From Tenacibaculum pelagium (GTDB taxonomy: Bacteria > Bacteroidota > Bacteroidia > Flavobacteriales > Flavobacteriaceae), in assembly GCF_014062345.1 (NCBI RefSeq), contig NZ_JACGLS010000003.1, positions 186,001 to 250,000 on the forward strand: DNA of 64,000 nucleotides. The letters are read 5' to 3'. The position numbers were made by a program, and so were the translations under genes. The notes under the pieces are model-generated. The model was not told the DNA's origin and did no database searches. It saw nothing but the letters and a program-made list of their open reading frames with translations. Shown here piece after piece: positions 26,265-30,090 of the stretch (position 1 is its first letter; each line of letters starts with the position of its first letter).

Positions 26265-27440
26265 TTAGCTTAATGAGAAATCATATGAAAATTCATCTTC
26301 TATAATTGGCTCGCTACAATTTTTCATATCGTTAATAAACTCATCAATTTGAGTTTTAGTTACATTAGGCATACAGATAATGTGAGCAACATCACCCTCG
26401 GTAGCTAATTGCCATTTGTTTTTAATACTCTTTGGTGTTTTTGGTAATACTACGGTAATCGCATTCGGATTTCTCCAAGCATCTACACCAATAGATTTTA
26501 ATTGTGTTTCGCAATATTCAGCAACTTCTAAACTGTGTAAATATCTGTCACGCAATCCTTCTGTTCCTAATTGTTTTAACGCATACCATAAGAATAAAGG
26601 AGAATGTCCGTTACGAGAACCAGTAATAGTAGTGTCTAAAGAACCGATATATGAAATGCCTTTTGCAATTCGATCTCTATTGGAACGTTTGGCTATTAAT
26701 ACTCCTGTTGGTATTGGAGAACCTACAAATTTATGACCACTTATAGAGATACTATCAGCTCCATCCATAAAATCAAAGGCTAATTTAGGTTGCATAAAAG
26801 GACCAAAAGTTCCAGCCAATGCAGCATCACAATGTATATAATGATCTTGGATTGCCATGTCTCCTAATATTCCTTTAATTTTAGAGATATCATCTTTTGC
26901 TTCTTTCATAGTAGTTCCAAAAGTAGCTAATACAATAACTGGTTTATGACGATTCATACGAACGGTATTTTTAAAATCCTCATAATCCATTTCGCCACTA
27001 GGTTGAGACTTAATTACTATACTAGGAATGTTTAATAAGTGAATATTTTTACGAACACTATAATGTGTAGATTCTGAATAATACACAATTGCTTTTGGAA
27101 ATAATTCACGCGCAAGATATAATCCGTATAAATTACTTTCTGAACCTCCATTGGTTACATATCCCCAAAAGTCTTTCGGATTTGCTCTAAATAATTTAGC
27201 AAAAAAAGCAATTACCTCACGTTCCATTTCATGGGTTTGAACACGATAGGTTCCATGTTCAAAAGGATCACCTAGATTATTGATAGGGAATTTTAAAAAC
27301 TCGTTCAATACCGAATAATCAAAATCTTTAGATACAGGGTATCCTAGAAAACTATCTCTAGCTGAAGTTAATTGTTTTTTAAGAGCATCTAACTTTTGTT
27401 GAATCTTTATAGAAGTATCATTTAATTCTGCCATGGTCAT
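26265..27440 (-). CDS. hdc: Histidine decarboxylase (PLP-dependent)
   Basis: Decarboxylates histidine to histamine, a group II PLP enzyme. 391 residues match the bacterial PLP-type Hdc length. Signatures: NNLGDPFEHGTYRVQTHEME near 52-71, VTNGGSESNLYGLYLAREL, HYIHCDAALAGT, and SISGHKFVGSPIPTG with the cofactor lysine at about 235. GSLDTTITGSRNGHSPLFLW follows. ATG 27440 is used; ATG two codons later is equally possible. In some bacteria such enzymes feed siderophores, but no siderophore genes are nearby. It has its own promoter box and a 146-base gap from yggS. Confidence 0.88.
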   Translation of the reverse strand: MTMAELNDTSIKIQQKLDALKKQLTSARDSFLGYPVSKDFDYSVLNEFLKFPINNLGDPFEHGTYRVQTHEMEREVIAFFAKLFRANPKDFWGYVTNGGSESNLYGLYLARELFPKAIVYYSESTHYSVRKNIHLLNIPSIVIKSQPSGEMDYEDFKNTVRMNRHKPVIVLATFGTTMKEAKDDISKIKGILGDMAIQDHYIHCDAALAGTFGPFMQPKLAFDFMDGADSISISGHKFVGSPIPTGVLIAKRSNRDRIAKGISYIGSLDTTITGSRNGHSPLFLWYALKQLGTEGLRDRYLHSLEVAEYCETQLKSIGVDAWRNPNAITVVLPKTPKSIKNKWQLATEGDVAHIICMPNVTKTQIDEFINDMKNCSEPIIEDEFSYDFSLS

Positions 27441-27586: not shown

Positions 27587-28327
27587 CTATCGAATGGTGT
27601 TTTTCTCATTCCAATAATAGCTATCAGGATATATTCTCTCTCCAAAAATAGCTGTTCCAATTCTAATGATGGTTGCACCCTCCTCAATAGCAATTTCTAA
27701 ATCACTACTCATTCCCATAGAAAGTTCCTTCATTTCTATATTTGGAATATTTTGGGCAATTATTTCTTGTTGAATTGACCTTAACAACTTGAAACATGCT
27801 CTTACTTTTTCTGCTTCTGCACTAAAAAGGCCAATAGTCATTAAGCCTTTGATATAAATTCTATCAAAACTAGCAAATTCTTTTGCTAAATTAATGGCTT
27901 CATTTGGAGGAATTCCAAATTTACTTTCTTCTGCAGAGGTATTAACTTGGATAAAAGCATTGATAGTTTTGTCTTCAGTTTCTAATCTTTTTTGCAGTTT
28001 TTCAGCTAAAGAAATTCGATCTAATGATTGAATACATGAAATGTCATATTTAAGAATTTCTTTTATTTTGTTAGATTGAAGATGTCCAATAAAATGTTTT
28101 TGATGTGAGATGTTTTTAAGATTATCGTACTTTTGCTTGATTTCCTGTATTTTATTTTCACCAATAAGGGTTTCTCCTTTTTCAATAACTGTTTTAATAC
28201 GATTGGCATCTACCGTTTTTGTAGCAAGTAATAATTTAACTTCATTAGCTTCTCTATTTGCTTTTCTACAAGCATTTTCGATTCGTTGTTGAATTACCTT
28301 TAGATTATCTAAGGTTGTTTGTGGCAT
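27587..28327 (-). CDS. YggS/PROSC family PLP-binding protein
   Basis: Cytoplasmic PLP-homeostasis protein with a TIM-barrel fold and no known catalytic reaction; it buffers PLP levels. 246 residues. The cofactor lysine is Lys37 in [11 protein letters not shown], followed by [32 protein letters not shown] and the phosphate-binding [23 protein letters not shown] region. It is the last gene of the thioredoxin-MarR-AAA-YggS run, 10 bases after the AAA gene, and lies among other PLP-dependent genes (hdc, gcvP). Confidence 0.92.
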
Positions 28328-28337
28328 ATTGTTTTAG

Positions 28338-29051
28338 CTATGTTTCTTTGGTTTTTTCTAAGGCTATAAGCTTTCTTTTTACTTGTTGGTAAGTAAGGTT
28401 TTTAGCTTCAGCATAAGAGATGTTATAATCTCTTTTGATATTTTGAAATTCTTTAGGAAACTTATTCACTAATTCATTATAGTATACATCCAGTTCTTTA
28501 TTTTTAGGTAAGTCAAACTTTAATCGAAGTTCAAATCTTCTTAAAAGAGCTGAATCAATTACTTGAACATAATTAGTAGCAGCAATTAAAAGGGCATCAT
28601 TATTTAAATGATCTATTAGTTGAATTACGGTATTTACTAAACGTTTCATTTCACCAGAATCTTTAGTGTCATAATCACGAGTCTTTCCAATAAAATCGAA
28701 TTCATCTATAAAAAGCACAGCTTTTTCTAGAGAAGCTCTTTTAAAAATTTCAGAAATATTCTTAGATGTTTCTCCAAGTTTAGAAGAAACAAAATTTCCT
28801 AAGTTCAAGACAATAATTTTTTTATTGAGTGCCTTTGCAATTGACTTTGCTGTAGCAGTTTTCCCACAGCCTGTATGACCATGAAATAAGATCTTATTGT
28901 CTATTGGTAAATTATATTTTTTCAAAGAAGCATAATAGGTAAATTCATCTAATAATTGATTTATTGCTTCTTGGTTTTCGTTACTTAAATGAAGTTCTTC
29001 TAAAGCAAGAGTTACTTCTTTTGATTGAATACCAATATTTATAAAACTCAT
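28338..29051 (-). CDS. Small single-domain AAA ATPase
   Basis: 237-residue AAA-family ATPase with Walker A GHTGCGKT (58-65), Walker B VLFIDEFDF (Asp116-Glu117), sensor 1 Asn160 in IAATN, and Arg fingers Arg171-Arg172 in LLRRFE. There is no protease, transmembrane or extra domain; a helical N-terminal segment (1-48) may bind a partner. Such short AAA modules usually remodel or load a dedicated protein. Start is 2 bases after the MarR-family stop codon, so the two are translationally coupled, which points to a shared pathway. The target is unknown. Confidence 0.8.
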   Translation of the reverse strand: MSFINIGIQSKEVTLALEELHLSNENQEAINQLLDEFTYYASLKKYNLPIDNKILFHGHTGCGKTATAKSIAKALNKKIIVLNLGNFVSSKLGETSKNISEIFKRASLEKAVLFIDEFDFIGKTRDYDTKDSGEMKRLVNTVIQLIDHLNNDALLIAATNYVQVIDSALLRRFELRLKFDLPKNKELDVYYNELVNKFPKEFQNIKRDYNISYAEAKNLTYQQVKRKLIALEKTKET

Positions 29052-29053
29052 TT

Positions 29054-29656
29054 TTATGATACTTTTAAAGCATGATCTTCACAATCTACTCTTAATTCTG
29101 AATCTTGAAGATTAGATTGTAATAAAGTGCAAAAATGCTGGTTGTTTTGAAGTTTGTAATTTGTACATGAAAAGCACATACGTTGTAGCGTTATTACCCC
29201 AGAAGTATTTAAACTTTTAATCATCTGTAAAAGGCTGCTAAAAACCACTTCTTTTTGCTCTTCTGAAAATTGCTGAATTGGTTTCTCTATAGAAGTAGTA
29301 AAATATGCTGATTTTTTAGCTATTCCCCTTCCTTTAGTGCTTAATTGTATAGTGTAACTTCTGCTATCTGTCTCGTTATATGCTTTGAAGATTAACTCCT
29401 TGTTGTGGAGTACTCTAATACTATCACTTATAGTAGCTTTGGTAAGATTAAATTCATCTGCTAAATAACTTACCTTACATTTTTCTTCTGAATGGAAAAG
29501 TAAAAAAATGAGAACTTGAATTTGAATTGGACTTAACGAATTCTCTTTGCTTTCTTTCCAAAGTAATACTTTAAACGCTTCAGAAATACGTTCCAGTGCA
29601 ACCACTATTTTATTGTCAATATTATTTTCTTGTTCTTTTAAATTGAATGAAGACAT
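29054..29656 (-). CDS. MarR-family regulator with C-terminal cysteine cluster
   Basis: 200 residues: a winged helix-turn-helix of MarR type (about 35-110; recognition helix near LTKATISDSIRVL) and a C-terminal extension. The extension has Cys161-x2-Cys164, Cys176 and Cys192, plus His174 and His195, spacing that could hold zinc or an iron-sulfur cluster, or form disulfides. Such sites make thiol- or metal-sensing plausible. The gene is preceded by a -7 box overlapped by a 17-base palindrome closely matching one before the thioredoxin-like gene, so autoregulation plus control of that gene is likely. It is coupled to the AAA ATPase. Confidence 0.8.
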   Translation of the reverse strand: MSSFNLKEQENNIDNKIVVALERISEAFKVLLWKESKENSLSPIQIQVLIFLLFHSEEKCKVSYLADEFNLTKATISDSIRVLHNKELIFKAYNETDSRSYTIQLSTKGRGIAKKSAYFTTSIEKPIQQFSEEQKEVVFSSLLQMIKSLNTSGVITLQRMCFSCTNYKLQNNQHFCTLLQSNLQDSELRVDCEDHALKVS

Positions 29657-29674
29657 AGTAAAAAATTTGCTTCA

Positions 29675-29682
29675 CAAAGTTA
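29675..29682 (-). promoter_or_regulatory. Candidate -7 box for the marR-AAA-yggS unit
   Basis: Minus-strand TAACTTTG, exact match to TAnnTTTG, predicting a start near 29671. Its upstream half lies inside the palindrome at 29678-29694. Confidence 0.5.
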
Positions 29683-29694
29683 GTAATCCTAACT
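29678..29694. promoter_or_regulatory. Putative MarR operator 1
   Basis: AGTTAGTAATCCTAACT: perfect 6-bp arms AGTTAG/CTAACT around five bases, overlapping the regulator's own -7 box. It is identical at 14 of 17 positions to the palindrome at 29992-30008. Confidence 0.6.
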
Positions 29695-29712
29695 ATATGA
29701 AGCAAAAAAATA

Positions 29713-29946
29713 TTATCCTTTTACATCTTCTATAGATGCACCAAAATTAATATGTAAAACATTTCCGCTTGGAGTTACTAGTGCAGGTACCGATTTTACC
29801 CCTGAATTTTCAGCAGTTAATATTTTAGAACGATCTTCACCTATATGAATGATTTGTACGTTACCTTCTCCAATAAGATTTACAATGTCTTGTTCAGCAC
29901 TAATGCAAACAGGACAACCTGCATGATAAAAAATTGATTTTTCCAT
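29713..29946 (-). CDS. Small thioredoxin/glutaredoxin-like protein
   Basis: 77-residue cytoplasmic protein with redox motif CPVC (Cys11, Cys14) after a first beta strand SIFYHAG, and the cis-Pro segment VKSVPALVTPSGNVLHINFG. This is a minimal thioredoxin-like fold of glutaredoxin size. Start taken at ATG 29946; the upstream ATG at 29973 would add nine residues that run through the predicted leader. It is the first gene of the run with the Cys-rich MarR protein 57 bases downstream. Likely a small disulfide reductase or sensor partner. Confidence 0.78.
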   Translation of the reverse strand: MEKSIFYHAGCPVCISAEQDIVNLIGEGNVQIIHIGEDRSKILTAENSGVKSVPALVTPSGNVLHINFGASIEDVKG

Positions 29947-29984
29947 TTTTATTAAATTAAATTTTCTTGGCATTATTACCGTTA

Positions 29985-29992
29985 CAAATATA
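29985..29992 (-). promoter_or_regulatory. Candidate -7 box for the thioredoxin-like gene
   Basis: Minus-strand TATATTTG, exact TAnnTTTG. The second palindrome starts at its upstream edge. Predicted start near 29981, leader about 34 bases. Confidence 0.5.
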
Positions 29993-30008
29993 ATTAGGAT
30001 TCCTAACT
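29992..30008. promoter_or_regulatory. Putative MarR operator 2
   Basis: AATTAGGATTCCTAACT contains the perfect palindrome TTAGGA-T-TCCTAA and sits where RNA polymerase would contact the region between -7 and -33 of the thioredoxin-like gene promoter. Confidence 0.6.
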
Positions 30009-30057: not shown

Positions 30058-30090
30058 AAAAAAACCTTACCAAAAACGGTAAGGTTTTAA
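30058..30090 (-). terminator. Terminator of gcvP
   Basis: 11-bp perfect stem AAAACCTTACC / GGTAAGGTTTT with an AAAAAC loop, 20 bases past the gcvP stop codon; on the minus strand it is followed by a T-rich run. Confidence 0.85.

Follow-up and report, generated by a model that had tools for sequence, protein, structure and literature searches.

The stretch analysed here, hereafter the window, comprises 64,000 nucleotides of the Tenacibaculum pelagium contig NZ_JACGLS010000003.1 (assembly GCF_014062345.1, positions 186,001 to 250,000, family Flavobacteriaceae). Its minus strand carries, in the order of reading, a GcvP-like gene recognised from sequence, a hairpin, operator 1, a gene for a small thioredoxin-like protein, operator 2, a gene for a MarR-family regulator with four cysteines in a C-terminal domain (the Cys4 domain), an AAA ATPase gene, yggS and a gene for a pyridoxal-phosphate (PLP) decarboxylase (Table 1). 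The start of the AAA gene lies 2 bp past the stop codon of the MarR gene and yggS follows the AAA gene after a gap of 10 bp, which suggests a single transcript for the three genes; the transcription unit probably continues from MarR through AAA (28338-29051) into yggS (27587-28327). The original prediction, a model's annotation of the same DNA, had left out the adjoining yggS. The closest named relatives are from Tenacibaculum (L134 and L135, 94% and 90% identity, respectively). With thioredoxin, MarR, AAA and yggS, the window locus is a reduced form of the operon described below.

Table 1. Features of the MarR-thioredoxin locus (positions in the window).
Feature	Position	Strand	Sequence, basis or remark
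YggS-type PLP homeostasis protein, 246 aa	27587..28327	-	probably co-transcribed; Pfam Ala_racemase_N
Single-domain AAA ATPase, IetA-like, optional member, 237 aa	28338..29051	-	Pfam AAA, PADLOC IetA
MarR-family regulator, 200 aa	29054..29656	-	Pfam MarR_2, structure model, PDB fold matches
Putative metal-binding Cys4 domain, residues about 158-195	29072..29185	-	C161, C164, C176, C192
Terminator-like hairpin and T run	29665..29706	-	inner stem is operator 2
-7 box of MarR promoter	29675..29682	-	TAACTTTG; overlapped by operator 2
Operator 2, before MarR gene	29678..29694		AGTTAGTAATCCTAACT on +, AGTTAGGATTACTAACT on -; conserved palindrome
Small CPVC thioredoxin-like protein, 77 aa	29713..29946	-	starts of homologues, PDB 2k8s profile
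-7 box of thioredoxin promoter	29985..29992	-	TATATTTG; last base shared with operator 1
Operator 1, before thioredoxin gene	29992..30008		AATTAGGATTCCTAACT on +, AGTTAGGAATCCTAATT on -; conserved palindrome
Terminator-like hairpin	30061-30088		between GcvP-like gene and operator 1

The winged helix of the regulator is recognised by Pfam MarR_2 (PF12802, 31.8 bits, over the cut-off of 27). The structure model (predicted local distance difference test score, pLDDT, of 94) consists of a MarR body and a small beta-rich C-terminal domain with strands predicted at residues 167-170, 173-176 and 181-183. The listed PDB fold matches are MarR-type proteins, MepR among others, and these relatives align only up to residue 160 or earlier, short of the Cys4 domain. 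The cysteine cluster, C161-x2-C164, C176 and C192, is present as first described, and the loss of these residues in relatives, which had been named as a reason to abandon the prediction, is not seen: each of the four cysteines is invariant in 115 of 115 aligned relatives (the 150-bit filter applied before the alignment dropped none of the 80 named rows). The Cys4 domain probably binds metal, and an iron-sulfur centre rather than zinc is a tentative assignment, rated slightly short of even. The curated NCBIfam model of AdcR-type zinc MarR proteins gives 34.6 bits, under its cut-off of 175. On sequence grounds, the regulator represents a MarR-family subfamily without a name in the copies of Pfam and NCBIfam used. 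A match from Agrobacterium C58 (L265) is devoid of the Cys domain and was excluded from the tree and linkage counts given below.

Both operators are palindromes that agree at 14 of 17 positions, and each overlaps or abuts an exact -7 box, so the window sequence bears out the original description at both promoters. The -7 boxes, TAACTTTG and TATATTTG, fit TAnnTTTG, the -7 box consensus of Bacteroidota. By a loose pattern alone (TTAGGANTNCTWA), the palindromes could be put down to chance, since the window's genome holds 9 matches versus 12 for the reversed control, but conservation decides otherwise. The proposed genome search for similar sites was carried out with TTAGGAWTNCTWACTWTRTTTG (at most one mismatch), which is found in 30 of 149 genomes of the family, one copy in each; 28 of these 30 copies are located at the MarR-thioredoxin system and two elsewhere (G127, G133). 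In most loci of the family, TTAGGAnTnCTAA-like palindromes are positioned at the -7 box upstream of both thioredoxin and MarR. A weight matrix built from 55 family sites was applied to 80 named loci obtained in a separate search, some of which may be near relatives of the training genomes, and yielded 140 sites, compared with 12 and 9 for two shuffled controls preserving only the local base make-up. All but one of the 140 sites fall in the 2.6 kb upstream of MarR, a region making up about a quarter of the scanned sequence, whereas the remaining site precedes the thioredoxin gene of a longer operon (L155). Accordingly, 78 of the 80 loci have a site within this distance; of the two others, L169 has only 184 bp upstream, and L185 has 1.2 kb with the thioredoxin gene starting at base 62. 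The genes preceded by operator sites are those for thioredoxin, an exported protein, DUF2024, MarR and a truncated globin, and, by our own gene calls, protoglobin in 7 of the 9 loci that encode it. The palindromes are therefore kept across Bacteroidota. Their conservation at both promoters supports the originally proposed circuit, and autoregulation by MarR acting on paired operators is, judging from these sites, almost certain.

Whole-genome searches for the operator and for protoglobin covered 35 of the 80 named genomes, hand-picked, with five chosen for their operon protoglobin. Among the matches listed, one site with no or one mismatch, in G469, is away from the MarR locus and all others are at it, and near-exact operators, as seen in these sequences, are confined to the MarR-thioredoxin system. 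In G469, the off-locus operator and a second site with two mismatches, 306 bp away, stand before a degenerate thioredoxin gene and an intact gene for the exported protein; this thioredoxin (L296:3397-3687), encoded on a contig different from that of the MarR locus, is devoid of the first active-site cysteine and has the operator pair upstream. With two mismatches allowed, 168 matches were found versus 124 for the reversed control, indicating that most such sites are background, and a wider regulon was rejected on this count. Of the 13 off-locus sites examined besides G469, ten are inside called open reading frames (ORFs), one of which (L305) also precedes another gene by 129 bp, two are outside but upstream of an ORF (L307, L308) and one is in neither position (L303). 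The regulon thus appears to be local, although weaker sites may have escaped the search.

A terminator-like hairpin ends just ahead of the MarR start, and operator 2 is its inner stem. The predicted RNA fold of positions 29657-29720 has an energy of -21.4 kcal/mol (z score -6.45). Terminator-like structures within 110 bp before the MarR gene are present in 22 of 35 family loci, versus 2.2 in shuffles, with 5 located around the operator, 15 directly after the -7 box and 2 elsewhere. A MarR transcript starting inside the hairpin could escape it, and a transcript arriving from upstream would end there. Similar structures precede 15 of 30 thioredoxin genes (0.6 in shuffles) and are presumably the ends of preceding genes.

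The most constant partner of the MarR gene is the small thioredoxin. Its start is most likely at 29946 (77 aa) rather than at 29973 (86 aa), because homologues begin there, and its profile matches PDB entry 2k8s, 'Thioredoxin', over the full length (positions 2-77, 113 bits, 4.2e-32). The active-site motif is CPVC in eight of nine aligned rows and CSVC in one (L095). Among the 149 family genomes, the MarR protein is encoded in 35 and the thioredoxin in 31, all of them MarR-positive, that is, in 31 of 35 MarR-positive versus 0 of 114 MarR-negative genomes (p 5e-28, kinship ignored). No more than about 2 kb separates the two genes in 30 of the 31 genomes, against about 26 kb in G102, so these two are kept together in relatives, a point on which the original prediction had staked itself. 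In the operon tally of the 80 named loci, in which opposite-strand ORFs shorter than 110 aa were ignored, thioredoxin is part of the upstream run in at least 60, a lower bound because antisense ORFs masked the gene in some loci. With the thioredoxin as query, 66 plasmid records match; eight were examined, of which five carry a Cys4 MarR gene adjacent or one gene off (L250, L253, L254, L255, L257), one carries a MarR remnant (L251) and two have no MarR gene (L252, L256). The pairing is thus, by these sequences, not peculiar to Bacteroidota. The remnant (L251:5466-5744), on a Cytobacillus plasmid, is related to MarR and adjoins thioredoxin, YggS and MOSC genes.

Regulators with the Cys4 end were found in Bacteroidota, Balneolota, Deinococcota, Proteobacteria and Cyanobacteria. 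The same end is encoded on plasmids of Thermus, Paraburkholderia, Sinorhizobium, Rhizobium, Shinella, Tistrella, Sphingomonas, Sphingopyxis, Novosphingobium, Nostoc, Citrobacter, Spirosoma and Hymenobacter, and it is present in 13 of the 14 plasmid MarR records examined out of 83. In a phylum-wide sample, the MarR profile matches 22 of 296 genomes and the module, as far as its sequence is recognised, is therefore sporadic in the phylum. A tree was built from 131 MarR proteins, after removal of two rows with overlong starts (at least 260 aa). On this tree, linkage to truncated globin and to protoglobin requires five changes each, at least three of which are forced by well-supported branches, and linkage to AAA requires four, at least two of them forced; these counts omit the 99 rows belonging to none of the linkage groups. 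The window lineage and other Tenacibaculum sequences (L139, L142-L144, L148) are placed in different parts of the tree, as are two groups of Chryseobacterium, and this scatter suggests horizontal transfer of the module. The distant plasmid row L250 has a very long branch.

Further genes accompany the pair in a lineage-dependent manner. The product of 27587..28327, which we take to be YggS, matches Ala_racemase_N (57.3 bits over the cut-off of 24.1) as a single domain of about 240 aa, the form characteristic of YggS/PLPHP. A YggS gene is located at most two genes downstream of MarR on the same strand in 22 of the 80 named loci, and it frequently begins inside the MarR or AAA gene, 4-8 bp before that gene ends. 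On an Agrobacterium plasmid (L256:2434-7760), the same small thioredoxin is found with a MocR-type regulator, an amidotransferase, glyA, YggS and pdxY. MOSC genes are present at 5 of 22 plasmid loci examined and MocR-like genes at three plasmid loci, with GntR and aminotransferase domains found for L256. The PLP decarboxylase gene of the window (26265-27440) follows yggS on the same strand after 146 bp and is also present in the close relative L134.

DUF2024, an identity confirmed by Pfam, and the exported protein are members of the upstream run in 49 and 16 of the 80 named loci, respectively; in or beside the unit of 36 family stretches, the counts are 18 and 16. The exported protein comprises 240 residues with a signal-like N-terminus. 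It has no Pfam or NCBIfam match, and neither a sequence match nor a clear fold match turned up in searches for its fold (best Foldseek E value 0.15; best VIA Z 6.4, in the common range). An ethylbenzene dehydrogenase subunit (2ivf_C, Z 5.6) bears a faint likeness to it. Motifs HPDFDD and HPHW are invariant in 25 aligned rows of this family (L155:2580-3299, L244:2855-3622, L261:5663-6379 and homologues) and slightly varied in distant homologues. In four Rhizobiaceae records, a homologue (175-181 bits) is located at the MarR locus, adjoining MarR in L248, L261 and L262 and three genes off in L263. Two Paraburkholderia MarR records show no recognisable partner gene.

Haem and di-iron proteins form another set of neighbours. 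Protoglobin (Pfam, 100 bits) is encoded in 9 of the 80 named loci, and the search of 35 genomes yielded seven matches, six strong ones, all in the MarR operon (five genomes), and one weak domain match elsewhere. The gene for a truncated globin (24.4 bits versus a cut-off of 21) is immediately upstream of MarR in 7 of the 80 loci, and in one protein (L174:4360-4992) DUF2024 is fused to truncated globin. Hemerythrin and RIC-type proteins are encoded 3-6 genes upstream of MarR in five and four loci, respectively, the latter being ScdA_N-hemerythrin proteins located 4-6 genes upstream. In Thermus, a cytochrome P460 gene is directly upstream of MarR in HB27 (by Pfam) and in T. oshimai (by annotation), whereas in strain SG0.5JP17-16 the cluster facing MarR carries annotations for cytochrome c, radical SAM, nitrite reductase and a cbb3-type oxidase subunit, of which Pfam confirms COX1 and cytochrome c.

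By their sequences, these neighbours point to reactive nitrogen or to another small compound that reacts with haem and PLP. Hydroxylamine, a substrate of P460, also attacks PLP, and iron-sulfur clusters are destroyed by NO (nitric oxide). Given globins, di-iron repair proteins, P460 and PLP-maintenance genes beside a Cys4 repressor, reactive nitrogen would be the simplest common signal; P460 acts on NO and hydroxylamine, according to the part of PMC6967387 that deals with it. Taken as a whole, the locus is best explained as a self-regulated stress-response unit with a Cys4 metal sensor and a reactive nitrogen signal, an explanation we hold at even chances, and for NO or hydroxylamine as the main signal the balance is likewise level. 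For repression, metal binding, the identity of the signal and the roles of thioredoxin and YggS, we infer the following cycle. The dimeric MarR repressor would sit on the two TTAGGAnTnCTAA operators and block both the thioredoxin promoter and its own. The Cys4 domain would hold an iron-sulfur cluster (or zinc or iron), and once NO, hydroxylamine or related reactive nitrogen species had damaged this centre, the repressor would come off and the operon would be switched on. Thioredoxin would be made first, followed, depending on the lineage, by the exported protein, DUF2024 and globin, with YggS protecting PLP enzymes during the stress. Once detoxification is finished, the regulator would rebuild its centre and repress again.

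Several observations weigh against reactive nitrogen as the signal. Most loci, including that of the window, encode no globin. Related truncated globins also exist outside the operon, at 26 places spread over 18 of the 20 genomes searched (out of the 80 named ones, and partly chosen for operon globins), with the eight best places coming from the eight genomes with an operon globin. By the models used, the window's genome encodes neither NirK nor NosZ. Across the 149 family genomes, NirK is mildly enriched with MarR (13 of 35 versus 21 of 114, p 0.036 uncorrected), unlike NosZ (20 of 35 versus 52 of 114, p 0.25), so the link to denitrifiers, weak for one enzyme and missing for the other, was rejected; G131, of the same genus, has NirK and no MarR gene. 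NCBIfam did not confirm the 'nitrite reductase' of Thermus or NorB in L258, and behind the 13 off-locus operator-like sites examined besides G469 no gene related to NO was recognised, the genes being judged by eye only. Cyanide, sulfide and toxins reactive with PLP or carbonyls would possibly fit the gene set as well, and the four cysteines may have a structural role or be joined in disulfides.

In a thiol-redox switch, the idea of the original prediction, oxidants or reactive sulfur would convert all or some of the four cysteines to disulfides or persulfides, which thioredoxin would reduce again. The constancy of thioredoxin as a partner agrees with such a switch, and so do several plasmid loci, where oxidant-defence genes (catalase, superoxide dismutase, thiol peroxidase, redoxins) fit oxidants equally well and keep the redox reading alive: thiol peroxidase lies between MarR and thioredoxin in Nostoc, redoxin or TlpA-like genes are one or two genes from MarR in Sphingomonas, Sphingopyxis, Novosphingobium, Tistrella, Rhizobium SSA_523 and Shinella, Hymenobacter and Rhizobium SL42 have catalase near MarR, Rhizobium SSA_523 has superoxide dismutase there, and sulfur genes are near thioredoxin in Thiothrix. 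However, four invariant cysteines, the C-x2-C pair and the predicted beta-rich end domain look, in our judgement, more like a metal site, and globins, P460 and YggS would be left unexplained; we regard the switch as unlikely. Zinc with a structural role in the cysteines, combined with a small molecule, such as a PLP-reactive toxin or a compound resembling cyanide, as a signal bound in the MarR pocket, would account for the coupling to YggS, for the Agrobacterium cluster of MocR, thioredoxin, glyA, YggS and pdxY and for the MOSC genes. A precedent is MpaR, which senses cyanide-modified PLP as mentioned in PMC11837568. The recurrence of nitrogen-oxide and haem genes across unrelated lineages speaks against this alternative, which appears distinctly improbable.

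In the original prediction, the AAA ATPase was a core member of the module. Its domain is clear (Pfam AAA, 105.5 bits), and PADLOC IetA models, which give no cut-off, score up to 198.5 bits. Together with the start 2 bp past the MarR stop codon, these matches would fit a unit centred on an IetA-like anti-phage ATPase with its own regulator. However, the score for the curated NCBIfam IetA model is 171.4 bits versus a cut-off of 510, and no IetS-type protease was recognised among the adjacent genes (yggS, PLP decarboxylase and the unscanned GcvP), beyond which no search was made. Orthologues of the AAA protein (at least 42% identity) are encoded in 10 of the 149 family genomes, five of which have the MarR gene, and are adjacent to MarR or one gene away in only three; among the named loci, AAA is downstream of MarR in 12 of 80. 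AAA as a core partner was therefore rejected, as was, given the IetA score below the cut-off, the anti-phage reading as the main explanation, which we consider highly improbable. Remodelling of the regulator's target by the AAA protein, as once suggested, is unlikely as a general mechanism because the linkage is so sparse.

Returning to the reactive-nitrogen reading, a broader version of it is a tentative possibility on the doubtful side: a so far unnamed, cross-phylum class of reactive-nitrogen sensors with an iron-sulfur Cys4 MarR protein and one operator-marked operon, in which the 77-residue thioredoxin, DUF2024 and globins would detoxify NO or hydroxylamine and YggS would guard PLP. If true, a MarR-fold regulator, found in five phyla, would join the sensors of nitrogen stress, and DUF2024, the exported protein and the small thioredoxin, for none of which we found a role, would gain a testable one. 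The operator is specific enough to indicate the regulon in Bacteroidota carriers, and tractable hosts include Thermus thermophilus HB27 and ordinary marine isolates.

No description of a Cys4 MarR-thioredoxin system was found in open-licence full texts. Among known regulators, NsrR is likewise described, in the material consulted, as a repressor of NO-type stress with an iron-sulfur cluster, but it has an Rrf2 fold, whereas the listed PDB fold matches of the window protein are MarR-type. The thiol-switch proteins OhrR, AbfR, SarZ and MgrA share the MarR fold, but alignments of the listed PDB relatives end before the Cys4 domain, and the sensing cysteines of these four proteins are located elsewhere. 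The nearest functional parallel encountered in print is ArnR of Corynebacterium, a winged helix-turn-helix iron-sulfur repressor of hmp and nar that is released by NO, according to the portion of PMC12343034 devoted to it. ArnR is a dimer, as the window protein most likely is, and also has a C-terminal cysteine cluster, but its cysteines number three versus four and its target genes are different. By curated model score it is not a relative, as the window protein scores 20.6 bits with the NCBIfam ArnR model (cut-off 400). BmoR of Bacteroides fragilis is, in the relevant sections of PMC6158253, a Bacteroidota MarR autorepressor linked to thiol balance, but it controls a disulfide oxidoreductase. 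Its complementing fragment of 418 bp includes 39 bp upstream (PMC6158253), which implies a protein of about 126 aa, apparently too short for the Cys4 domain. CioR of Chromobacterium is, in the extracts of PMC11837568 that concern it, a MarR-type autorepressor of an operon conferring resistance to NO and cyanide, yet it is of the GbsR type, controls cytochrome bd and responds to cyanide as the inducer among the stressors tested. On the open-licence texts searched, the Cys4 MarR-thioredoxin circuit appears to be an undescribed variant of the autoregulated stress repressors.

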